Origin: an uncultured Bacteroidota bacterium
GTDB lineage: Bacteria > Bacteroidota > Bacteroidia > NS11-12g > UBA9320
NCBI GenBank assembly: GCA_937124965.1
Contig: CAKZLB010000017.1
Coordinates: 124,001 to 188,000, forward strand
Length of the DNA: 64,000 nucleotides
Direction of reading: 5' to 3'
Shown here: positions 10,034 through 37,723 of the stretch, one piece after another
How the letters are laid out: the number at the start of each line of letters is the position of its first letter
Position numbering within the stretch: position 1 is the stretch's first letter
Made by a program: the position numbers and the translations under genes
Notes under the pieces: model-generated
Database searches by the model: none
Told to the model about the DNA's origin: nothing
The model's input: only the letters and a program-made list of their open reading frames with translations

Positions 10034-11070
10034 GGTTTGTAGCCCGACTTCCTCAACAATTCATCAGGTGATATGTTATCGAACAATTCTTGTAATTCTG
10101 TTTCTGGATGCTTATCCATGTACTCACGTACAATTTGCCATCCAGCCCACACACCGATTTTTGGTGGCGATTCTTGAGGAACATTCATTCCTTTCGAAAA
10201 AGGACCATCAGAAATCATTCCTGTGTATTTTCGGTATTCGGTGCTGTACAACAGATCTGCTTCAATTAAATGACTCCAAATTTGTTTTTCATTTTCATAA
10301 CACCATTCAATTTTTCCTTGAGCATAACCAATTTTTAATGAGTCTGGCGTGTCAGGTAACAAAGCATCAAGGGCATAAAGCACTTTGCCTTGAAAAATCA
10401 TTTCATCAAGTAATCTATTCTTTTCAGAACCAGTGTACTCACTTTCTAACCAACCTCTCATTACGTTTGGTACAATGTAATCTTTGCGAAATCGGTTTAT
10501 TAAATATTGAGGAAATTCTAAACCCGGTGACTGATAAGGTCCGAATTGTGCCCCTAAATACATATCTAAACCAATACCGATAGCGTTTTCTGTCGTAATT
10601 ACTTGACTTCTAAAAGGTGTCACAACTGTATATATAGAAGGGATAATCTTCTCAGGAAAATGATAGTGGTAGTAGGAGAATGCTTCACTTAGCTCCTCTT
10701 CAAGCCAATCTATTTCTGGATATGTAGAATCGGCAGTTTTGTACAAATGCATCATTTCATCATTTGTAACAAACTTGATTAGACCATCAGCACTTGCCTC
10801 GACTGGAATAAAACCATCACGCGTTTCTGTACCCATAATGCCGCGTTTAAACACATGAATAAAATTACTGTCTAATTTGTCTAGGTTTTTATAATCCTCA
10901 ACGTTTCGAACCGAAAAAATATCATCCTCCAAACGATTGATGCGAACTTCTACTTCACTATTGGTCAAATCTACATGGTGCTTACTGGTATCAGAGCAAC
11001 CTGCGACAACAATTATCGATAATAAAGATGCAATAAGGTTTAACCGTTTTATTCTCATTTTTTTTATCAT
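10030..11070 (-). CDS. gldB: GldB, gliding motility lipoprotein
   Basis: GldB is needed for gliding in Flavobacterium johnsoniae and its homologues are widespread in Bacteroidota. The protein begins with a basic, hydrophobic leader ending in lipobox VVAGC, so it is a lipoprotein. Conserved stretches include FIHVFKRGIMG, FPEKIIPSIYTVVTPF, IGIGLDMYLG, FPQYLINRFR and the C-terminal KIGVWAGWQIVREYM. I chose the ATG at 11068-11070; ATG 11056-11058 is possible, but a start at 11238 would add 56 residues lying across the divergent gene and before the signal peptide. The -7 box at 11093-11100 supports this start. Confidence 0.88.
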   Translation of the reverse strand: MIKKMRIKRLNLIASLLSIIVVAGCSDTSKHHVDLTNSEVEVRINRLEDDIFSVRNVEDYKNLDKLDSNFIHVFKRGIMGTETRDGFIPVEASADGLIKFVTNDEMMHLYKTADSTYPEIDWLEEELSEAFSYYHYHFPEKIIPSIYTVVTPFRSQVITTENAIGIGLDMYLGAQFGPYQSPGLEFPQYLINRFRKDYIVPNVMRGWLESEYTGSEKNRLLDEMIFQGKVLYALDALLPDTPDSLKIGYAQGKIEWCYENEKQIWSHLIEADLLYSTEYRKYTGMISDGPFSKGMNVPQESPPKIGVWAGWQIVREYMDKHPETELQELFDNISPDELLRKSGYKP

Positions 11071-22468: not shown

Positions 22469-22718
22469 AATAAGAAACGTTTAAGTCGTATTGGGCTACT
22501 AGTCAATACGTTGCATTCTTGTGACATGATCGTGTTCTTAAGAATAGATGATTAACCTGAGCTCGAGTCCTCTTTAGGGTTTGAAATTTTGGCTCCATAA
22601 CCTGTGTATATTTTGCCCTGAACTGAGTAAATACGCAACAAGTAAATAATATTCTAATGTTTAATGGGTTGTTTTTCAATGTGTTGTGTATTGGTGCGAC
22701 TGTTGAAATAAAAAGGTT

Positions 22719-23126
22719 ATGAAAAAAACTATAATTATCACTTGCATCGCGGCACTAGGTTTTGCTGGGTGTAAATACGAAGAAGGACCATCAATTAGCT
22801 TAACGCCCAAAAAAGAACGTATGGAAAACACGTGGGATATAGTTAGTGCTTCAGATGAGGGAGAAGACGTTTCTGATAGTTACGACAACTACACGTTGGT
22901 GTTGGCTAAAGACGGAGACGCAACACTAACAGCAAAGTATTCGTATGGGCCGTTTAGTTACACAGGAACAACCAACGGAACTTGGGAGTTTAAGAACAAT
23001 AAAGAAGATGTCTCTTTCGATTTTGAAGACGACGATGCAGACCAGGATTATCAAATATTAAAGCTAACCACAGATGAATTATGGTTGCGTGAAAAAGGCG
23101 GAGACTTAGAATTGAAATTAAACTAA
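22719..23126 (+). CDS. Small lipocalin-like lipoprotein
   Basis: The signal peptide ends in lipobox GFAGC, so the protein is a lipoprotein of about 117 mature residues. The mature part fits the small Bacteroidota lipocalin-like families: RMENTWDIVSASDEGEDV, then YTLVLAKDGDATLTAKY and NGTWEFKNNKEDVSFDFED, followed by LKLTTDELWLREK, i.e. a short beta-barrel that compares a model with an error term. No function is known. It ends at a good terminator and stands alone. Confidence 0.75.
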   Translation: MKKTIIITCIAALGFAGCKYEEGPSISLTPKKERMENTWDIVSASDEGEDVSDSYDNYTLVLAKDGDATLTAKYSYGPFSYTGTTNGTWEFKNNKEDVSFDFEDDDADQDYQILKLTTDELWLREKGGDLELKLN

Positions 23127-23290: not shown

Positions 23291-23734
23291 ATGGAAAAGA
23301 TAATAGTAAACAAAATAAATGAGATCGTTGATATTGCTCAAGATGGAGCTAATGGCTATAAAACATTAGCCGATTCTGTAGAGAATAAAGATATAGCAAC
23401 AGTATTCTTGCGACTTTCTCAACAACGAAAAATGTTTGTAGAAGAATTGAAGTATGAGTGCTTGGTTCAAGGAAACGAATTAGACATTACAGGAACAGTA
23501 AAAGGTTTCTTTCATAGGGTGTTTATGGAAATTCAAAGCATTGTTAAGTCAGATGACAAGCTTATTGACTTTGCGGTTCAGGGTGAACGGAAGGCAATTG
23601 AGGTATATGAGTCGATGATAACTCTCGAAGTACCCAGATATTTAAGAGAAAAGTTAAAGACTCAGTTGGGTCTAATTAAAGGGGCAGTAAAGCAACTTCA
23701 ACACTTTAAGTCGTTAGAAAAACAAAATGCGTAA
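23291..23734 (+). CDS. PA2169-type four-helix-bundle protein (DUF2383)
   Basis: A 147-residue, all-helical ferritin-like protein; EIVDIAQDGANGYKTLADSVENKD, FLRLSQQRKMFVEELKYE and GERKAIEVYESMI are the usual signatures of the DUF2383/PA2169 family. Metal-type carboxylates (E, H, E positions of the bundle) are partly present, but iron binding has not been shown. Such genes are often found with stress genes such as YtxH, CsbD and Dps. It is followed by a terminator, so it is a separate transcript from the YtxH operon. Confidence 0.85.
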   Translation: MEKIIVNKINEIVDIAQDGANGYKTLADSVENKDIATVFLRLSQQRKMFVEELKYECLVQGNELDITGTVKGFFHRVFMEIQSIVKSDDKLIDFAVQGERKAIEVYESMITLEVPRYLREKLKTQLGLIKGAVKQLQHFKSLEKQNA

Positions 23735-23765
23735 TGTAAGAGTGGAGGTTTGCATACAATAGGAC

Positions 23766-23796
23766 AAAGTGGGGCGAATTTTCCCCACTTTTTTTA
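23766..23796 (+). terminator. Rho-independent terminator after the DUF2383 gene
   Basis: AAAGTGGGG (23766-23774) pairs with CCCCACTTT (23783-23791) around an 8-nt loop and ends in a T-run to 23796. Confidence 0.92.
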
Positions 23797-23872
23797 TTCA
23801 AAATTCGTAAGGATCAGGTATTGAGCGGTTTGTGTTTTGGTTCGGAAATTTCACTAGTGAGGTTAAAAAGAT

Positions 23873-24151
23873 ATGAGTAATACACAAAACACCGTAACTG
23901 GATTATTAATTGGATTATTGGTTGGAGGAGCAGCTGGAGTGTTATTGGCACCAAAGTCTGGTAAAGAAACACGACAAGACATTTCTAAACGTCTAACAGA
24001 CTTATTAAATAAGGCAAATGACATGAAGAAAGAACTGCAAAACAGCCTTGTTGATGCAACAGAAGAAGAGAAAGAGAAAATTCAAGGGTATTTGAATCAA
24101 CTGGATGATTATTTAAACAATGTATTATCCAACGCTAAAGCCAGTAAATAG
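23873..24151 (+). CDS. YtxH-domain general-stress protein
   Basis: Residues 8-27 form a Gly-rich membrane helix (GLLIGLLVGGAAGVLLAP) directly followed by KSGKETRQDISKRL, the YtxH hallmark; the rest is an amphipathic, coiled-coil-like helix. YtxH proteins are induced by general stress in Bacillus and are thought to sit at the inner face of the membrane; no activity is known. The stop codon overlaps the GTG start of the next gene by 1 nt, so it is the first gene of a five-gene unit ending in the response regulators. Confidence 0.88.
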   Translation: MSNTQNTVTGLLIGLLVGGAAGVLLAPKSGKETRQDISKRLTDLLNKANDMKKELQNSLVDATEEEKEKIQGYLNQLDDYLNNVLSNAKASK

Positions 24152-24483
24152 TGAGTTCATTAAACGAGATATACGAGCTAACATTAACAAAGCTTGAACT
24201 AGCTAAGTTAAAGGCAATCGATCGCGTAACTGGATCTTTTGCTAAGATTATTGGTTTAGGGATTGTGGTGTTAGTTGCCGTATTTCTCCTTTTATCAATA
24301 CTTGTATTAAGCGCTGCAATTGTCGGATTATACTATGAAAGCATTGTAGCTGGATTAACCACATTTACACTGCTCTTAGCTTTACTAATGATTGTAATTG
24401 TTGGCTGGCAAAGGAAAATCATCGTTCAGCCTTTAAAGAATTTTTTAGTATTAACACTTTATGAAAACAGCGAAAATGATTAA
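24151..24483 (+). CDS. Holin-superfamily III-like membrane protein (Phage_holin_3_6)
   Basis: A 110-residue protein with an N-terminal amphipathic helix (EIYELTLTKLELAKLKAIDR) and two closely spaced membrane helices (about residues 35-58 and 66-85). This is the Phage_holin_3_6 layout; such chromosomal proteins are normally not holins but stress-linked membrane proteins found beside YtxH. The start is GTG at 24151, overlapping the ytxH stop by 1 nt. Its end overlaps the next small gene by 23 nt. Confidence 0.75.
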   Translation: MSSLNEIYELTLTKLELAKLKAIDRVTGSFAKIIGLGIVVLVAVFLLLSILVLSAAIVGLYYESIVAGLTTFTLLLALLMIVIVGWQRKIIVQPLKNFLVLTLYENSEND

Positions 24484-24652
24484 AAATTACAAGGACTTAA
24501 AGAACCGAATCGCTGTGCTCGAAAGTAGAGTGTTACTGCGAAAAGAATCACACAAAAAAACCGAAAAAAGTACAAGTCGTAGTTTAGGATTTCAGATTGG
24601 GATTTTACTGATAAAAGGACTAGTTGTTAACATATTAACTAAAAAGAAATGA
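24461..24652 (+). CDS. Small basic protein of unknown function
   Basis: 63 residues: a basic, coiled-coil-like first half (KNYKDLKNRIAVLESRVLLRKE) and a short hydrophobic C-terminal helix (LGFQIGILLIKGLVVNILT). I do not recognise it. It is placed between the holin-like gene (23-nt overlap) and the transporter gene (4-nt overlap), which makes it very likely to be translated; it may be a membrane-peripheral partner of YtxH. An alternative ATG lies 15 nt inside. Confidence 0.65.
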   Translation: MKTAKMIKNYKDLKNRIAVLESRVLLRKESHKKTEKSTSRSLGFQIGILLIKGLVVNILTKKK

Positions 24653-25680
24653 TGCGATCCGTGTTCTATACTATTGCTAGTCTTGCAATAATGTTGGCAA
24701 TATTAATTGTTGGAAAACCCGTTTTTGCACCGTTAATAATTGCATTTATCTTAGCCAATGTGCTGAGTAAACCAGTCCAAATGCTAAATGAAAAAGGGAT
24801 GAGCAATCAACTTGCAACAGGTTTAGTAGTATTGTTTGCTTTCGCTATTGTTGGGTTGATTCTGGCCGTTGTTACGACTCAATACTATGGTTTACTGGAA
24901 GACTCTCCATCGTTCACAGATAATCTAAACCATTACAAAGCCACTGCAGTGGATTATCTGGTTACACAATTTAACCTTAGTCCAAGATTTATGAATGATA
25001 TTGAGCAAAACATACGACGCGAAATAGGCTCAACGGCCAAGCTGACTATTGGAACCGTTTTCGAGTCGATGGTGAACTTTTTAAGTTTTATACTCATCCT
25101 TCCAATTTTTACCTTTTTACTTTTATTGAATAGGAAATCTGTAAAAACGTTTATTGTTAAACTTTCAAGAACTAATGACAACGTGACTTATCAAAAGTGG
25201 ATAACGTCACTGAATGAAATCCAAACAATTGTACGAAAGTATATTTCAGGGTTAATTATCGTAACGTTTATCCTGGCAACTTTAAACACCATTGGATTAT
25301 TAATTCTTGGCGTGCCATATGCAATTATTTTAGGAGTCAGCGCAGCTTTTTTATCAATTGTGCCGTACATCGGCAACATTGTTGGAGGTGGAGTAACGAT
25401 TTTAGTGACGCTTGCTTCAACGGGTAATCATAAGCTAGCATTATACATTATTATCTTATTTGGTGTAGTTCAATTAGTAGAGGGGAATTTAATAACGCCG
25501 AAAATTATGAATAATCAGATTGGGGTAAATCCCTTGGTAATCATTTTATCTTTAATGATTGGTGGGTACATTTGGGGTATTATCGGTATGGTTATTTCAA
25601 TTCCGTTAATCGCAATTATTATTTTACTCTTTAAGAAGAGAGAAGGGCTAAAACCCTTTGTAACATTACTAGAAAGTTGA
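24649..25680 (+). CDS. AI-2E/PerM-family (UPF0118) transporter
   Basis: A 343-residue protein with about eight membrane segments: one block at residues 6-75, a soluble insert (about 75-140), then helices around 145-165, 205-270 and 275-330. The pattern GVPYAIILGVSAAFLSIVPYIGNIVGGG and the following NLITPKIMNNQIGVNPLVIILSLMIGGYIWGIIGM are signatures of the AI-2E transporter (PerM/YdgG) family. Members export autoinducer-2 or act as Na+/H+ antiporters; substrate cannot be read from sequence. ATG 24649 and ATG 24652 are both possible. It overlaps the small gene before it and a TTG of the next gene. Confidence 0.88.
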   Translation: MMRSVFYTIASLAIMLAILIVGKPVFAPLIIAFILANVLSKPVQMLNEKGMSNQLATGLVVLFAFAIVGLILAVVTTQYYGLLEDSPSFTDNLNHYKATAVDYLVTQFNLSPRFMNDIEQNIRREIGSTAKLTIGTVFESMVNFLSFILILPIFTFLLLLNRKSVKTFIVKLSRTNDNVTYQKWITSLNEIQTIVRKYISGLIIVTFILATLNTIGLLILGVPYAIILGVSAAFLSIVPYIGNIVGGGVTILVTLASTGNHKLALYIIILFGVVQLVEGNLITPKIMNNQIGVNPLVIILSLMIGGYIWGIIGMVISIPLIAIIILLFKKREGLKPFVTLLES

Positions 25681-25685
25681 AAAAT

Positions 25686-26075
25686 ATGGATACTGAGGGT
25701 ACTTTAAAAGCACTAGTATTGGATGATGAGGCGGATGCGCGTTTCATCATATCAAACATTCTAAATAAGAATGGATACGATATCGTTCAAGTTGATACAA
25801 TTCAAAGTGCTTCAAATGAATTAGCTAAAAATAGTTTTGATTTGTTGTTTCTTGACTATAATCTGCCTGACGGTAATTCGTATGATTTGTTAAGTGACGA
25901 TTTGGTTAAAAAATCACCGACTATTATTTGTAGTGCATATCTTAATTCAGAACAAATCAGTAAATTTATGGAATTAGGGGTTAAAGTGTGTCTGCACAAA
26001 CCCCTTAACCAAAACCGAATAGTCGATGAAATAACAAAAATTAAAAACAAAACTGATGAAAATACTGGTAATTGA
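25686..26075 (+). CDS. Single-domain response regulator (receiver only)
   Basis: A lone receiver domain: acidic pair D13-D14, phosphoacceptor D57 in LLFLDYNLPDGNS, Thr/Ser region IICSAYL and Lys in CLHKPLNQ. There is no output domain, so it probably passes phosphoryl groups between the kinases and regulators encoded next to it or acts by protein contact. I chose ATG 25686 over a TTG at 25677 that would lie in the end of the transporter gene. The 3' end overlaps the sigma-54 activator gene by 20 nt. Confidence 0.85.
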   Translation: MDTEGTLKALVLDDEADARFIISNILNKNGYDIVQVDTIQSASNELAKNSFDLLFLDYNLPDGNSYDLLSDDLVKKSPTIICSAYLNSEQISKFMELGVKVCLHKPLNQNRIVDEITKIKNKTDENTGN

Positions 26076-27441
26076 TGATGACTTAGACCTCCTTCAAATT
26101 CTTGAAGCATTTTTAGGATCCAATGGGTGTGAAGTGACTACTGCCCAGAATGGCCGTAAAGGAATAAAAGCGCTCGATCAAAGCTTTGGTTTAGTCTTGT
26201 GCGATATAAAGCTTCCAGACTTTAGTGGTTTGGAAATTCTCTCAAAAATCAAAAAACTTCAACCGCATATACCGGTAATCATGATTACAGGATATTCGGA
26301 TGTAAAAACCGCTGTTGAAGCCCTTCGTCGAGGTGCTAAAGACTATGTGACAAAACCACTTTTTCCCGATGAAATATTATTGCAAATTCAAGAAATTCAA
26401 ACGGATGCAGAGTCCGTCCAAAACATAAAACAAAATTCCAAAGGTTCAAAATCCACCCAAACTCAAACTAAAAAGGTGGAAAAGCAAAATGCTAAAGTCT
26501 ATGTTCAAGGAGAGTCTAAAACCATGAATTCCTTAAACGAAAATTTAAAACTTGTAGCTCCAACAGACTTGAGTGTAGTAATACTTGGTGAAACAGGAAC
26601 GGGGAAGGAGTTTGTTGCTAAAAGACTTCACGAGTTAAGTGCACGATCATCAAAACCATTTGTGGCTTTAGACTGCGGAGCTCTCCCAACAGAGCTTGCA
26701 GGTAGTGAATTGTTCGGTCATAAGAAAGGGGCGTTTACAGGGGCAACTGTCGACAAAATGGGATTGTTTGAGACGGTAAAAGGTGGAACACTCTTTTTGG
26801 ATGAGATCGGAAATCTAAAGTACGAGAACCAAGTTAAATTGCTTCGAGTACTGCAAGAAAAAAAGGTGATGAGATTGGGAGATACTAAAGAAATTGACGT
26901 TGACTTTAGGCTCATCGTAGCAACAAATGATAGTCTTATTAATGCCGTTTCTAATGGTAAGTTTAGGGAAGACTTATACTACCGACTAAATGAGTTTAGT
27001 CTTCACCTACCTCCACTTAGTAATCGTGGAGGGGATATCATGCTTTTTGCACAACACTTTCTAAAATTAGCAAATGAGCAATTGAATAAAAATGTTACTG
27101 GGTTTGAAGATGAAATAATTGAGAAATTTCAACAATATAAATGGCCTGGTAACTTACGAGAAATGAGAAATTTGATAAAACGCTCTGTGCTTGTGGCTGG
27201 CTCAAATCGGATATCTAAAAAAGATGTGCCGGCTGAAATCATGATGAATGAAACAATATCAAATTCTCGCGAACTTCCTGAGAACTATACACTTAAGATG
27301 GTAGTCGAAGCCGCTGAGAAAGATGCCATTATACAAACCCTTCAAAAACATCAATTTAATAAAAGTAAAGTGGCAAAGGCACTAGATGTTGATCGCAAGA
27401 CTCTTTACAACAAAATTAATGCGTACAAAATTGAATTATGA
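26056..27441 (+). CDS. NtrC-type sigma-54-dependent response regulator
   Basis: Domains in order: receiver (residues 1 to about 118, D50 in LCDIKLPDFSG), a charged Gln/Lys/Thr linker (about 120-145), AAA+ sigma-54 activator domain with Walker A GETGTGKE (178-185), the sigma-54 contact loop GAFTGA (225-230) and LFLDEIGN, and a C-terminal Fis-type helix-turn-helix (HQFNKSKVAKALDVDRKTLYNKI). Active forms open promoters of sigma-54 RNA polymerase. The overlaps on both sides (20 nt and 4 nt) couple it to the lone receiver and the PAS kinase. Confidence 0.95.
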   Translation: MKILVIDDDLDLLQILEAFLGSNGCEVTTAQNGRKGIKALDQSFGLVLCDIKLPDFSGLEILSKIKKLQPHIPVIMITGYSDVKTAVEALRRGAKDYVTKPLFPDEILLQIQEIQTDAESVQNIKQNSKGSKSTQTQTKKVEKQNAKVYVQGESKTMNSLNENLKLVAPTDLSVVILGETGTGKEFVAKRLHELSARSSKPFVALDCGALPTELAGSELFGHKKGAFTGATVDKMGLFETVKGGTLFLDEIGNLKYENQVKLLRVLQEKKVMRLGDTKEIDVDFRLIVATNDSLINAVSNGKFREDLYYRLNEFSLHLPPLSNRGGDIMLFAQHFLKLANEQLNKNVTGFEDEIIEKFQQYKWPGNLREMRNLIKRSVLVAGSNRISKKDVPAEIMMNETISNSRELPENYTLKMVVEAAEKDAIIQTLQKHQFNKSKVAKALDVDRKTLYNKINAYKIEL

Positions 27442-28622
27442 TCCCAGCTATAACGGATACGAAATTACTTAAAGAGTTTGTTGCCGATTTTGTTAACAAT
27501 ATTTCAGTACCTGCAGCTTGGTTCGAGGCAGATAGTATTCATCTAAATTCTCAAGCCGAGACTCTTACAGGATATACAAACGATGAGGTAACATCGTTGC
27601 CAGATTGGTTTCAACGTATTTCTGGTGAAAATTGGGAGGAGTTTTGCCAAGATGTTTTCACCAAAATCAAGCAATATCGCTCATTCACATTGAACGATAT
27701 TGAGGTAGCCCATAAAGATGGAAGTACACGATTTATTAGAATATCGGTGTATTCGGTAAAAGCGATTCATTTATTTGTTATTAACGACATCACGATTGAA
27801 AAAGAGATTATTTCGTCTTCCGAAATTGAGGTAAGAAACTTAAGTACAGCACTTTTGGAGATTAAAAGACTGCAGAAAAGGTTGGTGCGAGAGAATAAAA
27901 AATTAGTAAAATCAAACAGTGAACTTGAAAATTTCGCTTACGTCGCTTCACACGATTTAAAGGAACCTTTAAGAAAAATTGTTGCATTTGGTGATAGACT
28001 CCAAGAGAAGTATGGACAATCTCTAGATGAAAAAGGAGCGTACTATATTGAAAGAATGTCTAACTCTAGTCGTCGGATGAACGCTCTTATTGATGATTTG
28101 CTGAAATACTCTAGAGTGTCACGAAATAACATCGTACTCGAACCAATTGATATGCAATCTCTCCTTGACGAAATAAAAGATCGTCTCGAAAATGCAATTG
28201 AACAAAGTAATGCTCAAGTTGTTTTTGGTGATTGTTTGCCAATTGTTGGAAGCAAGTCATTGGTGTCAAGCTTGTTTCAAAACTTAATTCATAATGGGAT
28301 TAAATTCAAAAAAGAAGGAGAAGATTCCAAAGTCCATATTACTTCCAAAAGAATAAAACTGAAGAGTCGCAAATACATTCAATATGAAGTTACAGATAAC
28401 GGAATTGGTATTGAGACTGAATATCACAAAAAAGTATTTGAAATTTTTGAAAAACTACATTCACGCGAAAAGTATGCAGGAACTGGAATAGGGTTATCCA
28501 TTTGTAAACGAATTATGGAGAAACATAATGGTAAAATAATTATTAAAAGCGAGGTTGGAACTGGGACAACGTTTGTTCTGCAGTTTCCAGACATAGATAA
28601 AGAGAAATGGAAAAAGAAATAG
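27438..28622 (+). CDS. PAS-domain histidine kinase
   Basis: A PAS domain (about residues 12-130, with LTGYTNDEV and HKDGSTRFIRIS), a coiled-coil stretch, a HisKA domain with H172 in YVASHDLKEPLRKI and a HATPase_c domain (N box NLIHNGIKF, G1 DNGIGI, G2 GTGIGLSICKRIM). No membrane segment is seen, so it is cytoplasmic. The SHDLKEPLR variant of the H box is the one found in phytochrome-type kinases that pair with Rcp1-like receivers, as encoded by the next gene. It overlaps the regulator upstream by 4 nt and the Rcp1-like gene by 16 nt. Confidence 0.93.
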   Translation: MIPAITDTKLLKEFVADFVNNISVPAAWFEADSIHLNSQAETLTGYTNDEVTSLPDWFQRISGENWEEFCQDVFTKIKQYRSFTLNDIEVAHKDGSTRFIRISVYSVKAIHLFVINDITIEKEIISSSEIEVRNLSTALLEIKRLQKRLVRENKKLVKSNSELENFAYVASHDLKEPLRKIVAFGDRLQEKYGQSLDEKGAYYIERMSNSSRRMNALIDDLLKYSRVSRNNIVLEPIDMQSLLDEIKDRLENAIEQSNAQVVFGDCLPIVGSKSLVSSLFQNLIHNGIKFKKEGEDSKVHITSKRIKLKSRKYIQYEVTDNGIGIETEYHKKVFEIFEKLHSREKYAGTGIGLSICKRIMEKHNGKIIIKSEVGTGTTFVLQFPDIDKEKWKKK

Positions 28623-29041
28623 TTGTATTAATGGCCGACGATGATGCCGACGATAAATTAATGGCTCAGGAGGCATTTGCAGAGAATAAGTTAGCGAATG
28701 ATTTGCAGTTTGTGTCTGATGGTAAAGAATTACTTGACTACTTAACGTTTCGAAATGGTTATAGTCCAGAAAATGCACCAAAACCAGACATAATTTTGCT
28801 AGATATTAATATGCCTAAGATGAGTGGCATTCAAGTTCTTGAAAAAATTAAGCAGGATCCTGAGCTGAAAAAAATACCAGTAATAATGCTCACCACAAGT
28901 GACGCCGACGAAGACATTGTTGCAACGTATGATTTAGGGGTTAATTCATTTATAACCAAGCCTGTTACCTTTGAAAAGCTGGTTGAGGTTATCGCCAACT
29001 TTAGTCAATATTGGTTCAAAATTGTAAGACTGCCAAAGTAA
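28607..29041 (+). CDS. Rcp1-like single-domain response regulator
   Basis: A lone receiver of 144 residues with acidic pair D11-D12-D13, phosphoacceptor D66 in IILLDINMPKMSG, LTTSDAD and the Lys loop FITKPVTF. The long insertion GYSPENAPKPD before the phosphorylation site is typical of Rcp1-type receivers, which are phosphorylated by cytoplasmic kinases like the one just upstream. It overlaps the preceding kinase gene by 16 nt and shares its last base with the start of the following kinase. Confidence 0.92.
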   Translation: MEKEIVVLMADDDADDKLMAQEAFAENKLANDLQFVSDGKELLDYLTFRNGYSPENAPKPDIILLDINMPKMSGIQVLEKIKQDPELKKIPVIMLTTSDADEDIVATYDLGVNSFITKPVTFEKLVEVIANFSQYWFKIVRLPK

Positions 29042-30507
29042 TGTTAACAGGATCAACCATACACGCATTATATGTCGACGATGACAAAGATGAGTACTAT
29101 CTGTTGAAAGACTTAGTTGACGAATTTTATTTTATTGATTTTGAAATAACCTGGGTAAAGTCATATGATGAGGCAATAGAGGCAGCTAAAGAATTAAAAC
29201 ATCAGTTTTATTTAATTGATTATAGACTAAGTGGTCGTTCTGGGTTAGACTTGGTCAAGGAGTTGACAAAAATTGATACGCGCATATCTAGCTGTTATAT
29301 GCTCCTAACTGGTATCAATAATCCAGAAATTGAAGATGAAGCCTTATCCTCTGGCATCGATAATTTTATTAGTAAAGCTGATTTAAATGCCCAACTCCTT
29401 GAGCGTACGGTAAGATATACGCTAGAAGCCAAAAAGAACTACATAGAGCTTGAGAAAAGTAGAAACCAGTACAAACAGATTTATCTTAATACAAATACTC
29501 CAGTAATTGAAGTCGGATTAGATTATAAAGTGTTGAAGGTAAATACTGCTTTTAACAAAACATTTAAATACCCAACAGACTACGTAATACATCCAAAGGA
29601 AACGAATTTGCTAATTTGGGAACTACTTGATTGCAACGACATAAAGGATCGAGTAATAGAGCACATTCAAAACAAGCGAAGCAAAACAGCGGAGATCTTT
29701 GAGTGCAATAATCAACAAAAAGAGGTTCTTTTGGTTCAAATGAACGTTTACGAACTTGTCGACTCTGATGAGAATCACACGTTTCAAATTGTTTTAAATG
29801 ACCTCACAGAAAAAGTAAAACGGGATAGACAAATTGAGGAAAGAAAACGAATTGATCTTATGGAAAAAATGGCTCGAATTGTAGCGCACGAGGTGCGTAA
29901 CCCATTGTCTAACATTGTTTTGTCAAATGAGCAGCTATCAACATATACTTCAGATTCAGGAAGCCTTTATGTGGATATAATAAAGCGAAACTCTATTCGA
30001 ATTGAGGCATTAATAAAACGTTTTTTAAATACTTTTAAGCAAGCAGAAGTAGAAAAAAAGCTGGGATGTGTTTCAGAACTTGTTTTAAAATGTGTGGAAA
30101 ATTTCGAGGATAAAGCTAGGCTTACAAACGTTAAAATTGAGGTTGATATAGAGAAAGACTTACCGCTAATTTGGCTTGACGAAGACAAAGTGTTCTTGGT
30201 GCTAAATAATCTTGTGAGTAATGCGATTCAAGCTTCAGAAACTTTTGATGACGCAACAATAAAAATGATTGTAAGGAAATCGGAGGACGAGGTTGAAATA
30301 ATTGTATGTGATAATGGTGTAGGAATTTCAGATGAAGATATGAATAGTCTATTTGAGCCATTTTTTACAAAAAAAACAGAAGGTTTAGGGCTCGGTTTGA
30401 CCACATCATTGAATATAATTAGAAGTCATGATGGAAATTTGGTTGCCAGCCAAAATGAAGGAAGAGGCGCAAGTTTTATTCTGTCTTTACCAATCATAAC
30501 CACGTAG
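29041..30507 (+). CDS. Receiver-PAS-histidine kinase (N-terminal receiver hybrid)
   Basis: Domain order is receiver (residues 1 to about 125, D60 in FYLIDYRLSGRSG, SKAD Lys), PAS-like (about 145-260), HisKA with H283 in IVAHEVRNPLSN, and HATPase_c (NLVSNAIQA, DNGVGISDED, GLGLGLTTSLNII). The receiver lies at the N-terminus, as in response-regulator-driven kinases: phosphorylation of D60 would tune kinase activity. I chose ATG 29041 (TAATG overlap with the previous stop) over TTG 29011. The gene product has no membrane segment. Confidence 0.93.
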   Translation: MLTGSTIHALYVDDDKDEYYLLKDLVDEFYFIDFEITWVKSYDEAIEAAKELKHQFYLIDYRLSGRSGLDLVKELTKIDTRISSCYMLLTGINNPEIEDEALSSGIDNFISKADLNAQLLERTVRYTLEAKKNYIELEKSRNQYKQIYLNTNTPVIEVGLDYKVLKVNTAFNKTFKYPTDYVIHPKETNLLIWELLDCNDIKDRVIEHIQNKRSKTAEIFECNNQQKEVLLVQMNVYELVDSDENHTFQIVLNDLTEKVKRDRQIEERKRIDLMEKMARIVAHEVRNPLSNIVLSNEQLSTYTSDSGSLYVDIIKRNSIRIEALIKRFLNTFKQAEVEKKLGCVSELVLKCVENFEDKARLTNVKIEVDIEKDLPLIWLDEDKVFLVLNNLVSNAIQASETFDDATIKMIVRKSEDEVEIIVCDNGVGISDEDMNSLFEPFFTKKTEGLGLGLTTSLNIIRSHDGNLVASQNEGRGASFILSLPIITT

Positions 30508-30509
30508 CT

Positions 30510-31889
30510 ATGCGATTTCGATGGTTCCTTACTATTTGTATTTGTGGTCTATTCTATAGTTGTTCTACAAACAATGACGGGTCAACCTCAGAAAGTGAAT
30601 TCAATCGAGATTTTGATGATATAAAATCCTCTAATTTCTGTCTTCCAATAAGGCTTTCATTTAATGATTTAGAGGCTAAGCTTAATGGTGAGTTAAAAAA
30701 TGTTCTAGTCTCAAAACGCAAAGTTGATAAAAACACTAAAATAACGATTGTTAGAAATGGAAAAGTCCGTCTCTCTGGAGTTAGTGACAAGGTCCAAACA
30801 ACTATTCCTCTCAAAGTTGAAATTCGAAAAAAAAAGATTATCGATTTACCGGTCATAAGTTTCCAAATTGACGTATCGGTACTAAGTGAATTAAAGGTAA
30901 ACTCAGATTGGTCTGTTTCCTCAAGTTCATACGTGTCCGAATACTCTTGGAAAGAAGAACCAACCATGACTTTTTTGGGATTGGATATAAATTTAAAAGA
31001 TCAAGTAGAGAAGGTGTTAAACGAAGAAAAACGTGCTATTTCTAAGTCGTTTGATGCCTTAGTATCAAAGAAAATAAGTCTTGAAAAAGTAGCAACGAAG
31101 ACTTGGAATTCGATCCAACGTGATCATAACCTACTTAAGGGGAGCGGAGATACTTTAATTCTTAAAGTTCTTCCATTGTCAGTTGGGTATCTTAGTCATT
31201 CGACAAGCTCTGATGCCGTGACAATAAATGTGAAGGTAGAAGCAGATTTGAAAATATGTAGCTTTCATGCAATTCCTATAACTGAACTAAGAGCATTGCC
31301 AAAGCTATTATTAGAAAAAGATACGTGTGATGGAATAAAAGTCAATCTCCCTTCCATTATAACATTTAAGGATTTAAACGCCAGCTTAAATAAACACCTT
31401 TCAAATAGTGAAAAGCCGATTGAGCTACTTGGTTACTCAGTGAAATCGGTGCGATTAAGTCAGCAAGACCGAAGTGCATATATTACGCTAAATGTTGAAG
31501 GAGTCGATGATGCTATATTAGGTGCAGAAATGCGGTTGGAAATTGATTCGATTAACGGACGGCTGATGCCAGAAATCTCTGAAATCGAAGTGTTGTCAGG
31601 CAACCTACAAACATCTATTGCGATTGAGATTCTAAATTTATACGTTTCCGATATTTTGCTAAAATATCAAGGGTTTGATTATAGCGGGTATTTACAGCAA
31701 TTACCTCAAATTGTAGAACAAGCGATCGAAAACGGTAAGTCTGGAGATATGTGGCACCCTGAATTCCAATATATGAATACCATAATCGATGGTTTTATGA
31801 TTGATCAATCCAGCATTCAGATGAAATTTAAATGTAAAGGAAGCGCAGTGGTCGTGGTTGACTCAATTAAACCAAAATTGAAAGAGTAG
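30510..31889 (+). CDS. DUF4403 family lipoprotein
   Basis: A lipobox FYSC at the end of the signal peptide marks a lipoprotein. The rest (about 440 residues) is made of two similar beta-rich halves: NFCLPIRLSFNDLEAKLNGEL near residue 45 and GIKVNLPSIITFKDLNASLNKHL near 285 open each half. This is the Bacteroidota DUF4403 layout. The two-lobed, strand-rich form recalls lipid-binding tubular folds, but nothing is established. It starts 2 nt after the last kinase gene, so it is likely co-transcribed and may be a target or part of the stress response. Confidence 0.8.
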   Translation: MRFRWFLTICICGLFYSCSTNNDGSTSESEFNRDFDDIKSSNFCLPIRLSFNDLEAKLNGELKNVLVSKRKVDKNTKITIVRNGKVRLSGVSDKVQTTIPLKVEIRKKKIIDLPVISFQIDVSVLSELKVNSDWSVSSSSYVSEYSWKEEPTMTFLGLDINLKDQVEKVLNEEKRAISKSFDALVSKKISLEKVATKTWNSIQRDHNLLKGSGDTLILKVLPLSVGYLSHSTSSDAVTINVKVEADLKICSFHAIPITELRALPKLLLEKDTCDGIKVNLPSIITFKDLNASLNKHLSNSEKPIELLGYSVKSVRLSQQDRSAYITLNVEGVDDAILGAEMRLEIDSINGRLMPEISEIEVLSGNLQTSIAIEILNLYVSDILLKYQGFDYSGYLQQLPQIVEQAIENGKSGDMWHPEFQYMNTIIDGFMIDQSSIQMKFKCKGSAVVVVDSIKPKLKE

Positions 31890-32023
31890 AGATTCTTTCA
31901 CGGTGTGTGGAATATATACTCAAATTTCACCTATGTTTTTATTTCTAATTGCGCAGAGTGTTGATTCTTAGCATTTTGTATCGGCGGCACGAATCATGAA
32001 TATTACTGTTAAAAAATAATACA

Positions 32024-32635
32024 ATGACTAAAATAAAATCAATATCAGGGTTTTTATTAACCATCTTACTCATTTTTTCATCGTGTCAGAAAGCTGAAAC
32101 AGAAGCTGAAAAGGCAGAAAAAGAACTTCGAGAATTTGTTAAAATGGTTGAAGTTAAAGCAGAAGAGAATTCTGAGGAGCTAGCTGAGGAATGGGCAGAT
32201 TTTGAAGAAGAGTTTAAGGAGAAATCCAAGGAAGTGAAAGAAGAGTCCATGAATGAAATCAATGAAACATGGATGAAAATAAAAGAGAAGGTAGACGAGG
32301 TGATGGACAATGAACCTTCAACTCCTATTTTGGCTTTGTACACAGCGTTAGGTTTGGAAAGCCAAAATGCTCCAATGGGATATATTGACCAAGGTAATAT
32401 TGTACGTAAATACAAAGGGTTTGTTAATCACATCGTAGAAAACAAAAGTAAGTATACAACCAAGGATTGGGAAGATGTTGATGAAATCTGGACGTCCTTA
32501 AACAACCGAAAAAACGAGTTAGAACCACTTCATGTGGATAGTACAGCAGAGATTGTTAAACTCAAAGCGAAGTACCTTCAGACACGAGTAGTTAACAAAA
32601 CCGAATCTGCCATTGAAGAAACGTTAGAAAAATAA
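32024..32635 (+). CDS. Helical, acidic lipoprotein of unknown function
   Basis: The signal peptide ends in lipobox IFSSC. Residues 22-95 are highly charged (Glu/Lys) and should form long helices or a coiled coil; the second half (ILALYTALGLESQNAPMGYIDQGNIVRKYKGFVNHI) is less biased and ends with another charged helix. I do not recognise a named family, though similar lipoproteins occur beside Dps and stress genes in Bacteroidota. The 14 bases TGTTAAAAAATAAT lie just before its ATG, and again before dps. Confidence 0.7.
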   Translation: MTKIKSISGFLLTILLIFSSCQKAETEAEKAEKELREFVKMVEVKAEENSEELAEEWADFEEEFKEKSKEVKEESMNEINETWMKIKEKVDEVMDNEPSTPILALYTALGLESQNAPMGYIDQGNIVRKYKGFVNHIVENKSKYTTKDWEDVDEIWTSLNNRKNELEPLHVDSTAEIVKLKAKYLQTRVVNKTESAIEETLEK

Positions 32636-32697: not shown

Positions 32698-33177
32698 ATG
32701 AGTACAGCATACAAAAAACTGGGATTTTCCCAAGACGAAAAAAATCAGATAGTTGACGATTTAAACATCTTGTTGGCTAACTATCAAATTCATTATCAAA
32801 AACTTAGAAACTTTCATTGGAATGTAAAAGGGCCAGACTTTTTTGACATACACGAACAATTTGAGATGGAATATAATCATGTAAAGTTGTGTATTGACGA
32901 GTTTGCCGAGCGAATAAGGACTTTTGGGGCTACCCCGTATTCGACACTTGAAAAGTATCTTGATGTCGCTGAAATTGAGGAGTCGGAATCTGATATTTCA
33001 GGATCTGAAATGGTATCAAGAGTCTTGAATGATTTTACCATTCTAATGGGACTTTTAATAACGGCATCCGAAACGTCACACAACATTGGAGACTTAGGTA
33101 CAACTGATATGTTGGTGAAAGAATTGAAACGCATGGAAAAAAGACACTGGATGTTCACTTCATTTAATTCTAAATAA
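32698..33177 (+). CDS. dps: Dps, DNA-protection/ferritin-like protein
   Basis: Dps forms a 12-subunit shell that oxidises and stores iron with H2O2 and protects DNA. The inter-subunit ferroxidase residues fit the family spacing: H40 (NFHWNVKG), H52 (FDIHEQFE), E56 in place of the usual Asp, D67 and E71 (CIDEFAERI). Length of 159 is typical. A short Lys-bearing N-terminus (STAYKKLGF) might touch DNA. mscS-like follows after 5 nt, so the two are likely co-transcribed. Confidence 0.95.
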   Translation: MSTAYKKLGFSQDEKNQIVDDLNILLANYQIHYQKLRNFHWNVKGPDFFDIHEQFEMEYNHVKLCIDEFAERIRTFGATPYSTLEKYLDVAEIEESESDISGSEMVSRVLNDFTILMGLLITASETSHNIGDLGTTDMLVKELKRMEKRHWMFTSFNSK

Positions 33178-33182
33178 ATAAC

Positions 33183-34070
33183 ATGCCACAACAAGATCCT
33201 TCAATAAAAGTTGAACTGAAAGAGCAATTAACAGAATCGTACGATCACGTTAAAAACAAATTAGAAGGTTGGTTAGATGCAATAATCGTTAACCTGCCAA
33301 ACTTATTGGTTGCGGTCGTCGTTTTTGCGCTCTCATATTTTTTATCGGGATTTATTCGAAAGCAGCTTGAGAAGTTACTGAAAAAACATATTGAACAAGC
33401 GTCACTTAGGTCATTAATTTCAACAGCAACATCTATTGTAATCATTAGTGCGGGCTTATTTATTGCACTTGGTGTACTGAACTTAGACACAGTTTTAAAA
33501 TCGATGTTAGCTGGTGCCGGAGTTGCTGGTTTGGCTATCGGTCTTGCACTGCAAAGTTCATTGTCTAATACGTTTAGTGGTGTTTATCTTTCTGTTCAGG
33601 ATATAATTAATATCGGAGATTGGATAGAATCGAACGGTTATTCAGGAACGGTAGAAGAAGTTAATTTGCGAAATACGGTAGTGCGAGAACCCGACAATAA
33701 CCTTGTTATGATCCCGAACAAAATGGTCGTTGAAAACCCATTTAAAAACTTTGGTTTAACGAAACAGATACGTGTAATCGTGACATGTGGAGTTGGGTAC
33801 GATAGTGATTTAAATGAAGTAGAAGAAATGGTTAAAGCAGCTATCAAAGAAAACTTTAATGATGACGAGTCGAAAGATATCGAGTTTCATTATCTAGAAT
33901 TTGGCGATAGTTCAATAAATTTTCAAACGCGATTTTGGATAGATGCTAGTGTGAAGATTTCTATCCTAGAAGCTCGAAGCCAAGCGATAAAAGTGATAAA
34001 AGAGACATTCGACAAAAATGGAATCGAGATTCCATTCCCAATACGAACTGTTTATATGAATAAAGAATAA
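33183..34070 (+). CDS. MscS-family small-conductance mechanosensitive channel
   Basis: About three membrane helices (residues around 32-58, 75-100, 106-130) with the pore helix MLAGAGVAGLAIGLALQSSLSN, Gly/Ala packed as in MscS TM3, followed by the beta domain FSGVYLSVQDIINIGDWIE...GYSGTVEEVNLRNTVVREPDNNLVMIPN and a C-terminal alpha/beta domain. It opens on membrane tension to release solutes during hypo-osmotic shock. 295 residues is the classic small MscS size. It ends at a terminator and, with dps, closes the stress stretch. Confidence 0.93.
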   Translation: MPQQDPSIKVELKEQLTESYDHVKNKLEGWLDAIIVNLPNLLVAVVVFALSYFLSGFIRKQLEKLLKKHIEQASLRSLISTATSIVIISAGLFIALGVLNLDTVLKSMLAGAGVAGLAIGLALQSSLSNTFSGVYLSVQDIINIGDWIESNGYSGTVEEVNLRNTVVREPDNNLVMIPNKMVVENPFKNFGLTKQIRVIVTCGVGYDSDLNEVEEMVKAAIKENFNDDESKDIEFHYLEFGDSSINFQTRFWIDASVKISILEARSQAIKVIKETFDKNGIEIPFPIRTVYMNKE

Positions 34071-34096
34071 ATCAGAAACCCTGTAAATAAATTGCG

Positions 34097-34121
34097 AAGC
34101 GGCCTTTGGTCGCTTTTTTTT
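34097..34121 (+). terminator. Rho-independent terminator after the MscS gene
   Basis: AAGCGGCC (34097-34104) pairs with GGTCGCTT (34108-34115; one G-T pair) around a 3-nt loop and ends in a T-run. Confidence 0.88.
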
Positions 34122-34464: not shown

Positions 34465-35988
34465 ATGGCAATTTTAGGAAACATAGTAAAAAAAGTTGTA
34501 GAGCTATCCATTACTTTGGATAGTGAAAACAAAGAGCCACTTACAAAACAAATGGACGTACTTCGTGAACTTATCAATACCGCAAAGTCAACTTCTTTTG
34601 GACAATACTTTGGATATTCAGAGATGTTTCAACTTTCCGATAGCGAAATGTACGAACAGTTTCAGAATAGTATTCCAATACTTACATACAATCAGATTAA
34701 CCGTAAATGGTGGAAACAACACCAAAAGTTCGGTAATATAACATGGCCAGGCAAACAGTCGTTTTATGCACTAAGCAGCGGAACAACTGGTAAATCAAGC
34801 AAAAGAATACCCGTTTCGGAAGAGATGATGGACTACACGCGTAAAGTAAGTTTTCAACTCGTTAAGAGCTTAGGTAGCTTCAATCTAAATCCAACTTCTT
34901 ATGAAAAAGAGGTGTTTATGTTAGGCAGCTCAAACGATTTAATAGAAAACAAGTATGGCTTTTTAGAAGGTGAAATTAGTGGCATAAATACGTACAACCT
35001 ACCCGGATGGTTTGATATTTTTTATAGGCCAGGAAAAGACATTGCAAGTATTAACGAATGGGATGAACGAGTTGCGGCAATTGTTAAAGAGTCGGTAAAC
35101 TGGGACATTTCAGTAATTGCTGGAATACCAAGTTGGGTGCAAGTAGTTTTAAAACGAATCATTACAGAGCATAATTTGAATTCTATTCATGACATCTGGC
35201 CAAACTTAGAATTATATATCACAGGAGGTGTGCCTTTTCAACCATTTGCCAACAGTTTTAATGAATTAACGAATGAACCCCTAAAAATAATTGACACCTA
35301 TTTGGCTTCTGAAGGATTTTTTGGGTTCACCGATCACCCGGACCGAAGCGATATGAAGCTCTCTATTGATACAGGTGTTTTTTACGAATTTATACCTTTT
35401 ACAAATGAAAATTTTAAGAACGGGAAGTTGGTTAAAAATCCTCAAACATTGACTGTACACGAGGTTGAGGTAAACATAGACTACGCCATGATTATTACAA
35501 CGGCAAGTGGATTGTGGCGCTACCAAATCGGCGATACACTAAAATTTACAGACGTTAAAAACTTGCGTTTTGAAATAACTGGAAGAACGAAACATTTTTT
35601 GAATGTTGTCGGATCACAGTTGTCTGAAGAGAAACTAGATATAGTTGTCAAAAAATTAAGTAAAACTAAAGGCGTTGGTATAGATCATTATAGTGTGGCT
35701 TGTGTTGAAAAAAAGTCTGGCCGTTTCGTGCATCAATGGCTTATTGTGACCGATGATACATTGGATACAGCAAACACAAAATCATTCATTGATCAACATT
35801 TAAAAGTTGCAAATAAGAACTACCAAGTAGCCAGAAATAAGGCTCTGAGTGGGGTAGAGGTGGTAGTTGTTAAAACGAATAAGTGGTATGATTTATTAAA
35901 GGAGAAAGGAAAAATTGGTGGCCAAGCCAAAATTCCTAAAGTGATGAGTCAAGAAATGATCGAAGATTACTTGTCTGAATCTATTTAA
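34465..35988 (+). CDS. GH3-family acyl-adenylate/amido synthetase-like protein
   Basis: A 507-residue member of the ANL (acyl-adenylating) superfamily, GH3 branch. ATP-binding motif SSGTTGKSSKRIPVS is around residues 107-121 and YLASEGFFG (second GH3 motif) around 277-285; GLWRYQIGDTLKF (third motif) follows. Plant GH3 enzymes join hormones such as indole-3-acetate or jasmonate to amino acids through an acyl-adenylate. Bacteroidota homologues are common but the acyl and amine substrates are unknown, so activity is only inferred. A single gene on its strand, with a long leader. Confidence 0.85.
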   Translation: MAILGNIVKKVVELSITLDSENKEPLTKQMDVLRELINTAKSTSFGQYFGYSEMFQLSDSEMYEQFQNSIPILTYNQINRKWWKQHQKFGNITWPGKQSFYALSSGTTGKSSKRIPVSEEMMDYTRKVSFQLVKSLGSFNLNPTSYEKEVFMLGSSNDLIENKYGFLEGEISGINTYNLPGWFDIFYRPGKDIASINEWDERVAAIVKESVNWDISVIAGIPSWVQVVLKRIITEHNLNSIHDIWPNLELYITGGVPFQPFANSFNELTNEPLKIIDTYLASEGFFGFTDHPDRSDMKLSIDTGVFYEFIPFTNENFKNGKLVKNPQTLTVHEVEVNIDYAMIITTASGLWRYQIGDTLKFTDVKNLRFEITGRTKHFLNVVGSQLSEEKLDIVVKKLSKTKGVGIDHYSVACVEKKSGRFVHQWLIVTDDTLDTANTKSFIDQHLKVANKNYQVARNKALSGVEVVVVKTNKWYDLLKEKGKIGGQAKIPKVMSQEMIEDYLSESI

Positions 35989-36606: not shown

Positions 36607-36757
36607 GCCCAATATGAGATATTTTGCCCCAATTGGTTAATCAACCAAACAGAAATGTTAGTTTTTAATTCGCTAGTAAACAGTTTCTTAAAGGTAGGAT
36701 GCCTATTTTATAATCTGCTGGTACATTGTATGCATCTTCTACAATAAAAAACAAATT

Positions 36758-36928
36758 ATGTTACGATTAATTATTTCATTATTGATATTGGCGGTAATCG
36801 CCGGAGTGTTAGGGTTTACTGGAATCGCTGCAGCAGCGGCTGGCATAGCAAAGGTCGTTTTTTGGTTGGCGTTAGTGTCGTTTCTAATTTCGATTATTTT
36901 TAGTCTACTCCGTAGAGCTAAACTGTAA
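36758..36928 (+). CDS. DUF1328 family small membrane protein (YtjA-like)
   Basis: 56 residues beginning MLRLIISLLILAVIAGVLGF and continuing with a Gly/Ala-rich helix (TGIAAAAAGIAK) and a second hydrophobic helix ending SLLRRAKL. This matches the DUF1328/YtjA family of two-helix membrane proteins that are often stress-linked. It is too short for most gene calls but the family match and the terminator directly after it make it convincing. Confidence 0.85.
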   Translation: MLRLIISLLILAVIAGVLGFTGIAAAAAGIAKVVFWLALVSFLISIIFSLLRRAKL

Positions 36929-37108: not shown

Positions 37109-37723
37109 ATGAAGAAGCTATACACAACATTACTAATAATTGGAGCGGCAATTTCAAGTTCAGCACAAATAGAAACGTCAATGGGATTTAAAGGTGGAAT
37201 GATTGTAAATCAATTTCACGGAGATAACCTTAAACAACAAGCATGGAAAACAGGGCCACAGGTTGGTGGTTATATGAACCTAAGTTTAGCAAACATATCT
37301 CAATTTCAATTTGAACTTCTATACCAAAGGCAGCGAGGAAGCTTTGTGTCGGATTTAGGGGAATTTGATTTGAGGACTGGGTACATCGAAATTCCATTAC
37401 TCTACAAATTGAGATACCCTAGTAAAAAAGGAATATATCCGTATTTGAGTATTGGTCAAAGTGTTGGGTATAAAATATCTGAAAGCAGCAGAATACACAC
37501 TACAGAGTCGGAAGGAACCTTTAAAGAGGCGGCTAATCAAGTAAAATCAATTAATGTAAATACCTTGGTTGGAGCTGGGGTCGACTTTGAATCAGACAAT
37601 GTTAATCTTTTTGTTGATGCACGATATGTAAATGGGAACATCAACATTTCTAAACAAGACTATGCGGTAAAATCAAGAAGCTTTGCTTTGACCATTGGCT
37701 TAGGCTTTAAACTAAATAAATAA
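37109..37723 (+). CDS. PorT-family outer-membrane beta-barrel protein
   Basis: Signal peptide of about 20 residues (ending SSSAQ), then strand-rich sequence of the OMP_b-brl_2 type: SMGFKGGMIVNQFHG, FQFELLYQRQRGSF, YIEIPLLYKLRYP, YLSIGQSVGYKI and SFALTIGLGFKLNK. Probably an eight-stranded barrel of the outer membrane with unknown role. It resembles the gene at 11100 in family but not in detail. A tiny basic open frame follows after 9 nt. Confidence 0.78.
   Translation: MKKLYTTLLIIGAAISSSAQIETSMGFKGGMIVNQFHGDNLKQQAWKTGPQVGGYMNLSLANISQFQFELLYQRQRGSFVSDLGEFDLRTGYIEIPLLYKLRYPSKKGIYPYLSIGQSVGYKISESSRIHTTESEGTFKEAANQVKSINVNTLVGAGVDFESDNVNLFVDARYVNGNINISKQDYAVKSRSFALTIGLGFKLNK

Follow-up and report, generated by a model that had tools for sequence, protein, structure and literature searches.

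The window analysed here, a stretch of 64,000 nucleotides (nt) from an uncultured member of the Bacteroidota, contains a compact run of ten genes, from YtxH (start at 23873) to a DUF4403 protein (end at 31889), in which a cassette of membrane proteins is joined to a set of two-component regulators that includes a sigma-54 activator. We regard it as probable that this locus is a sigma-54-controlled, YqjDE-like envelope stress operon, a reading which draws on the order of the genes, the families of their products, the conservation of the neighbourhood in relatives, and an enrichment of sigma-54-like promoter sites before the starts of linked genes. In our judgement the general and envelope stress organisation of the Bacteroidota type is not well known; a locus in which a membrane cassette found class-wide is joined to sigma-54 and two soluble kinases provides a concrete entry point, with candidate sites that can be tested singly. 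A literature search, with most subscription papers outside its range, returned no paper joining YtxH with rpoN, none on YtxH with stress and Flavobacterium or on YtxH with "phage holin family" and Bacteroidetes, and none on the AraC family with CsbD and Flavobacterium.

All positions are those of the window. Open reading frames (ORFs) were opened at the first ATG, GTG or TTG, and true starts may lie further in; domains were called with Pfam and NCBIfam on the proteins of the window (19 of them in the Pfam scan). The ORFs were all found at the places given in an earlier note made from the letters of the sequence. The ten genes lie on the + strand and begin with four for membrane or membrane-associated products: YtxH (23873-24151), a member of Pfam PF12732 at 70.4 bits (cut-off 37.5); a holin-like membrane protein (24151-24483), which starts with GTG, has hydrophobic windows from residue 25 onward and matches A1, a profile of 14 holin-like proteins that includes its own sequence, at E 2.1e-25; a 63-residue protein (24461-24652) with one hydrophobic segment by hydropathy, in what we call X, the third-gene place after YtxH and the holin-like gene, whose products in relatives were aligned (A2); and a transporter of the AI-2E/PerM family (24649-25680; PF01594, 170.6 bits against a cut-off of 34.3), whose transport activity is predicted.

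The regulators follow. RR1 (25677-26075 from TTG 25677, or starting at ATG 25686; Response_reg, 63.8 bits) and RR2 (28607-29041; 80.1 bits) are single-domain response regulators. Between them lie the sigma-54 activator (26056-27441) and HK1 (27438-28622), a soluble PAS histidine kinase with HisKA, HATPase_c and weak PAS matches and no hydrophobic segment. The activator has the make-up of the NtrC class, namely a receiver (Response_reg, 100 bits), an AAA+ domain with GAFTGA (Sigma54_activat, 223.5 bits) and a Fis-type helix-turn-helix (HTH_8, 47.3 bits); none of 25 listed NCBIfam models matched it over cut-off. RRHK (29011-30507), a receiver-PAS-histidine kinase, is likewise soluble by Pfam and hydropathy, and the DUF4403 protein (30510-31889; Pfam, 162 bits) closes the run 2 nt 3' of it. 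The genome itself has one rpoN match (C13, E 3.1e-52). The regulators had been described as a phosphorelay, which is unproven, since no Hpt domain is among the Pfam matches of these five proteins; one may be encoded elsewhere.

The spacings along the run are -1, -23, -4, -4, -20, -4, -16, -31 and +2 nt, so that the largest gap is 2 nt, and the ten genes form one apparent operon, which would be transcribed as a unit. The overlaps of 1 nt (YtxH and holin-like), 23 nt (holin-like and 63-residue protein) and 4 nt (the latter and AI-2E) are as the earlier note had them; its overlap of AI-2E into the regulators, also of 4 nt, holds for the TTG start of RR1 and becomes a small gap for the ATG start. 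The note had further packed into the same group a DUF2383/PA2169-family four-helix-bundle protein (23291-23734, + strand; Pfam 80 bits; TIGR02284 54.4 bits, cut-off 44.8). This gene is a separate unit, because 138 nt containing a terminator-like hairpin (23766-23791, + strand; -16 kcal/mol, z -4.3) intervene before YtxH, and a single operon beginning at DUF2383 does not agree with the hairpin. At the other end DUF4403 is followed after 134 nt by a lipoprotein-like gene, after another 62 nt by Dps and after 5 nt by MscS, with a terminator-like site at 34096-34116, 3' of MscS. The proposed order of these four is correct, but because of the 134-nt gap the lipoprotein, Dps and MscS genes are probably on another transcript than the ten-gene run.

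A rearranged version of the locus occurs in G001 (contig JAAEYY010000001.1), a genome of another genus in the same family and the one close relative in a scan of named genomes; the other seven loci from that scan matched distantly and in part. The order there is lipocalin-RR1-NtrC-HK1-RR2-RRHK-lipoprotein-Dps-MscS-DUF1328-OMP-YtxH-holin-AI-2E (OMP, outer-membrane protein), i.e. the YtxH block comes after MscS, DUF1328 and OMP, and in the window before RR1. RR1 has its counterpart there at E 4e-24, the activators are 62-63% identical, and no DUF4403, DUF2383 or X was found in the annotated G001 stretch.

Within the order, YtxH gave a match at E<=0.001 in 16 of 107 genomes, 15 of them over the cut-off. 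Nineteen annotated YtxH stretches of the order were counted by reading: 13 have a holin-like neighbour and seven the series YtxH-holin-X-AI-2E, one (L031) ends at YtxH, and L033, L041, L042, L043 and L045 have YtxH without the holin. For the class, the best 150 rows each were listed for YtxH and for the holin profile, making the counts lower bounds; at least 93 of the 150 YtxH rows, from at least 85 genomes, are followed immediately, in the same orientation, by a holin-profile match. As called by these matches, the YtxH-holin pair is class-wide and occurs more than by chance.

Eighty such pairs, one per genome and taken from 80 of the 84 genomes other than our own, were compared with 29 control stretches from the same contigs at a distance of 60 kb. 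Genes of the AI-2E cluster are present in 38 of the 80 cassette stretches and 1 of the 29 controls. Six further families are absent from the controls (0/29), these being DUF5670 (22/80), CsbD (18/80), a small lipoprotein-like family (18/80), an MlaD-like family (17/80; named by eye), OMP (16/80) and Dps (11/80); the CsbD, DUF5670 and OMP clusters were named by Pfam on L094 (L-numbers denote loci of relatives). Where a holin ORF was picked, X adjoins it in 53 of 72 loci, and in 19 of 72 AI-2E is among the next four genes downstream. These counts indicate that the cassette is part of a wider stress neighbourhood, in which AI-2E as immediate partner is common and not the rule. MlaE-ATPase-MlaD-like genes, again named by eye, often stand 3' of AI-2E or beside the cassette in the 80 loci.

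Relatives of the activator (phmmer, E<1e-126) are found in 13 of the 80 cassette stretches and none of the 29 controls (P 0.013; this and the other P values ignore kinship among genomes). A count by regular expression (3/80) was too strict and was superseded. Nine of the 13 belong to one family, f42, of which the three stretches viewed have NtrC-AI-2E-(YtxH)-holin-X on one strand, the YtxH ORF of L137 not having been picked. The others, L135, L143, L144 and L148, represent four further families. L135 and L143 also carry receivers, a kinase, RR2, RRHK and DUF2383, L144 carries a receiver, RRHK and DUF2383, and L148 has Dps, an RRHK-like kinase and NtrC; the activators of L135, L143 and L144 are 44-49% identical to that of the window. 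Relatives of rpoN are present in 4/80 cassette stretches and 1/29 controls, and in L126 and L136 rpoN directly follows YtxH-holin-X on the same strand, with Sigma54 domains in the L126 product. These two rpoN genes (L126:10915-12369, L136:7432-8886) are divergent from that of the window genome.

Full-length relatives of RRHK (E<1e-100) occur in 17 of 281 class genomes, our own included, and all 17 are among the genomes listed for YtxH (base 148/296; P 9.4e-6). By distances read by eye from the match listings, seven of the 17 have a listed YtxH row no more than 10 kb away, and two others share a contig with one at 27-38 kb. With the four profile genomes left out, 3 of 13 are within 10 kb, 0.09 being expected (P 8.5e-5). 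The conservation of the neighbourhood, the absence of which the earlier note would have counted towards refutation, is therefore present in the G001 locus, the class-wide YtxH-holin pairs and the activator counts. Its description of a response "of the phylum" is too wide for the link to sigma-54, which only a minority of genomes have.

The 5-75 nt before each start were scanned for TGGCACG-N4-TTGCA with GG fixed and at least 9 of 12 bases matching. Such sites were found before 21 of the 148 starts of eight sigma-54-linked loci and before 14 of the 1286 starts of all other stretches (P 3.3e-13), the latter consisting of 7/800 in other loci, 1/145 in f42 and 6/341 in controls; 20 permuted consensuses gave 0-3 sites in the eight loci. 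Without the window and G001 the linked loci retain sites at 14 of 95 starts (P 3.7e-10). In the window, sites are found at 5 of 37 starts, those of grpE, lipocalin, YtxH, lipoprotein and DUF1328, with 0.34 expected; 70 nt taken at random from the window score 9/12 or better with P 0.0093. As a regulon would require, putative -24/-12 sites thus stand near the starts of supposed target genes, most of them with weak -12 halves.

Four of these sites, all on the + strand and all 9/12, belong to the module under discussion: TGGTGCGACTGTTGAA (22692-22707), 27 nt 5' of the lipocalin start; TGGTTCGGAAATTTCA (23838-23853), 35 nt 5' of YtxH and past the terminator; CGGCACGAATCATGAA (31985-32000), 39 nt 5' of the lipoprotein; and TGGTACATTGTATGCA (36719-36734), 39 nt 5' of DUF1328. 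In G001 the DUF1328 gene, taken there as the first of the YtxH unit, has a 9/12 site at 37 nt. The fifth site of the window is that of grpE (621-1193), 25 nt ahead of its first start codon; PMC12316311 describes grpE as sigma-54-dependent in two Bacteroidota.

Several results weigh against this reading. The f42 loci were split off post hoc, and when they are pooled with the linked loci the comparison becomes 22/293 against 13/1141 (P 3.7e-8). Three of the four module sites are without the GC of the -12 element (YtxH TTTCA, lipocalin TTGAA, lipoprotein ATGAA), and the best upstream sites of Dps and DUF2383 reach only 5/12 and 7/12. A -24/-12 scan of the whole window at three mismatches is at chance (246 found, 249 expected), and the 80 class loci, each scanned in full, show no excess of the motif either; the sigma-54 signal is confined to the vicinity of starts in linked loci. 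Relatives of RRHK are rare, and for 8 of the 17 the contig has no listed YtxH row. As to the likeness to the yqj genes of E. coli considered below, X showed no detectable similarity to YqjK and the A1 profile found nothing in YqjE alone.

The scarcity and scattering of RRHK, the near absence of sites in f42 despite its adjacent activator and the chance-level count over the window are also what would be seen if the two-component genes stood beside the cassette by chance, another regulator or a constitutive promoter served the cassette, the G001 order were inherited or co-transferred synteny and the weak sites of the window were fortuitous. We think this unlikely, because the association of activator and cassette recurs in several families, RRHK lies close to YtxH outside the profile genomes as well, and linked starts are enriched in sites to a degree that permuted consensuses do not approach. 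Coordinated control, as the earlier note had it, is to judge from sequence better supported than refuted: conservation and sites point to the adjacent activator, but DUF2383 is separate and some genomes carry a different motif.

Other searches of the upstream regions contributed less. A strict search of our own genome gave 7 matches, with 1 for the reversed pattern, too few to be used, and a motif picked out by eye upstream of genes, GGCAYGAWW (10/130 against 4/1120), was set aside because it derives from the same loci. De novo dyad searching returned AT-rich words only, and Rfam at gathering thresholds gave no match. Palindromes of the TCCC-AATTT-GGGGA type are found before YtxH at L135:10151-10165 and 10241-10253, both between divergent YtxH and DUF2383 genes, and at L143:9642-9655; they are possible activator sites. 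The NtrC-type palindrome pattern scanned for is absent from the window.

Under sigma-54 control the locus would most likely operate as follows. The soluble kinases HK1 and RRHK would pass a signal by way of the receivers to the NtrC-type activator; a cytosolic signal is suggested by the lack of hydrophobic segments in the kinases. The activator would then open the sigma-54 promoters of the lipocalin, YtxH, lipoprotein and DUF1328 genes, and since transcription from the YtxH promoter would extend through the regulator genes, positive feedback would result. YtxH, the holin-like protein and the third protein would be membrane proteins with a protective or quietening effect on cells under stress or in stationary phase; AI-2E/PerM, the lipoprotein, Dps, MscS and the outer-membrane barrel would be their partners in this. 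By analogy, a membrane-centred role in protection or quiescence is the most likely one.

The analogy is with the E. coli yqjCDEK operon, encoding DUF1090, DUF883, Phage_holin_3_6 and YqjK proteins. Both systems have a glycine-zipper membrane protein, a Phage_holin_3_6 or holin-like protein and a small third protein at tight spacing, and a small lipoprotein-like gene is near in the 18 class loci mentioned above. They differ in that the window has YtxH in place of DUF883, an added AI-2E gene and sigma-54 rather than RpoS, and in that its holin-like protein falls below the Phage_holin_3_6 cut-off. The label Phage_holin_3_6 given to it earlier was not confirmed for the window protein itself, which has no Pfam match to this family (PF07332); 9 of the 14 aligned proteins (the window copy being one of the 14) match at E<=0.1, the best at 5.3e-7, with L143 (33.2 bits) and L126 (39.0) over the cut-off of 28.4 and L156 (25.1) below it. 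The 14 proteins have a weak common pattern. The window copy is divergent in sequence, since as a query it finds only its own genome and G001 among 108 genomes of the order. Its neighbour, the 63-residue protein, is without a Pfam match and looks like a shortened or replaced X, the 12 aligned X relatives having 122-152 residues; its homology to them rests mainly on gene position.

A stronger form of the analogy would make the cassette a growth-arrest or ribosome-tethering device like yqjCDEK instead of an envelope-stress system, with sigma-54 control as a starvation or stationary-phase switch. It would explain the similar gene order, the placing of YqjE and several holin-like relatives in Phage_holin_3_6, and a glycine-rich membrane helix common to YtxH and YqjD (20 columns, E 5e-5). 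According to PMC10746276, YqjD binds ribosomes at the membrane, growth halts when YqjD or YqjE is overproduced, and RpoS upregulates yqjC, yqjD and yqjE. We hold this idea to be distinctly unlikely, however, since YqjD matches DUF883 and the YtxH of the window does not, X is not YqjK-like (an operon with DUF883 first and a YqjK-like protein third is not what the window holds), and the neighbouring MscS, AI-2E, OMP and lipoprotein genes look like those of envelope proteins.

A different control element is found in some genomes of the class. The motif TGTGAATnATGTAA-N15-17-TGTAA, followed by a CACCTTTG-like box, is often placed some 100 nt upstream of genes for CsbD, YtxH, OMP and lipoprotein. 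In strict form it has 77 matches in 29 of 296 class genomes, with 1 for the reversed pattern; a looser form gives 26, spread over 14 of the 80 loci, and none in the 29 controls. It thus offers a separate way to approach a gene set of similar make-up. The loci concerned are L090-L158 and L205-L234 (e.g. L094:14362, L101:12202, L211 and L231), and the motif also stands before response-regulator genes and genes named by eye as ice-binding-like. In L211 and L231 it stands before the gene of a small AraC-type regulator, and in L035 between such a gene and YtxH. This regulator (about 185-205 residues with a short N-terminal part; L035:11139-11699, L211, L231) is encoded in 12 of the 80 cassette loci and in 17 of 107 genomes of the order, including 9 of the 16 with YtxH (P 4.5e-5). 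That it binds the motif is a guess, because the overlap between the two over the 80 loci is modest (4 shared by our own count, about 2 expected).

It is quite possible, though somewhat less likely than not, that a YqjDE-like cassette of the class is served by two interchangeable controls, either sigma-54, sometimes with rpoN in the cassette, or a small AraC-type regulator which recognises a direct repeat of fixed spacing some 100 nt upstream of the start; the window would then hold the sigma-54 version, self-amplifying because its regulator genes would be on the same transcript. The frequent position of the motif before the same kinds of gene and the 12 loci with the regulator could even be taken to mean that this second control also governs the window, in a degenerate or unrecognised version. 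That is highly improbable: the motif is absent from the window, and the window genome has neither a loose TGTGAATnATGTAA match nor such a regulator at E<=1e-20.

Among other known systems, those of the NtrC/ZraR/AtoC type resemble the proposed sigma-54 operon in having a receiver-AAA+-Fis activator and an AtoS/ZraS-like kinase beside the supposed targets, and differ from the window with its two soluble kinases, four receivers and YtxH/holin/AI-2E target set. The phage-shock (Psp) response, controlled by PspF and sigma-54, is likewise a sigma-54-driven membrane-stress operon; PspF is without a receiver, unlike the activator of the window, and no match to PspA, PspB or PspC was found in the 19 window proteins scanned.

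The remaining genes of the neighbourhood flank the run on both sides, all on the + strand. Upstream is a small lipocalin-like protein (22719-23126; Pfam Lipocalin_4), 61% identical to L050:6159-6563, and its ortholog adjoins RR1 in G001. Downstream, the product of 32024-32635 is lipoprotein-like and probably coiled-coil, both labels having been judged by eye with DUF6565 below cut-off, and matches L050:11580-12263 (G001) at E 1e-27. The Dps-like ferritin (32698-33177; Pfam Ferritin, 66 bits) and the MscS-type mechanosensitive channel (33183-34070; MS_channel_2nd, 70.7 bits) have G001 orthologs at E 8e-68 and 2e-134, respectively. The DUF1328 small membrane protein (36758-36928; Pfam, 46.6 bits) and the outer-membrane beta-barrel protein (37109-37723; 48% identity to L050:14109-14732, OMP_b-brl_2) are the same pair as in G001. 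Between MscS and DUF1328 lies a gene for a GH3-family protein (34465-35988), with a sigma-54-like site of 8/12.

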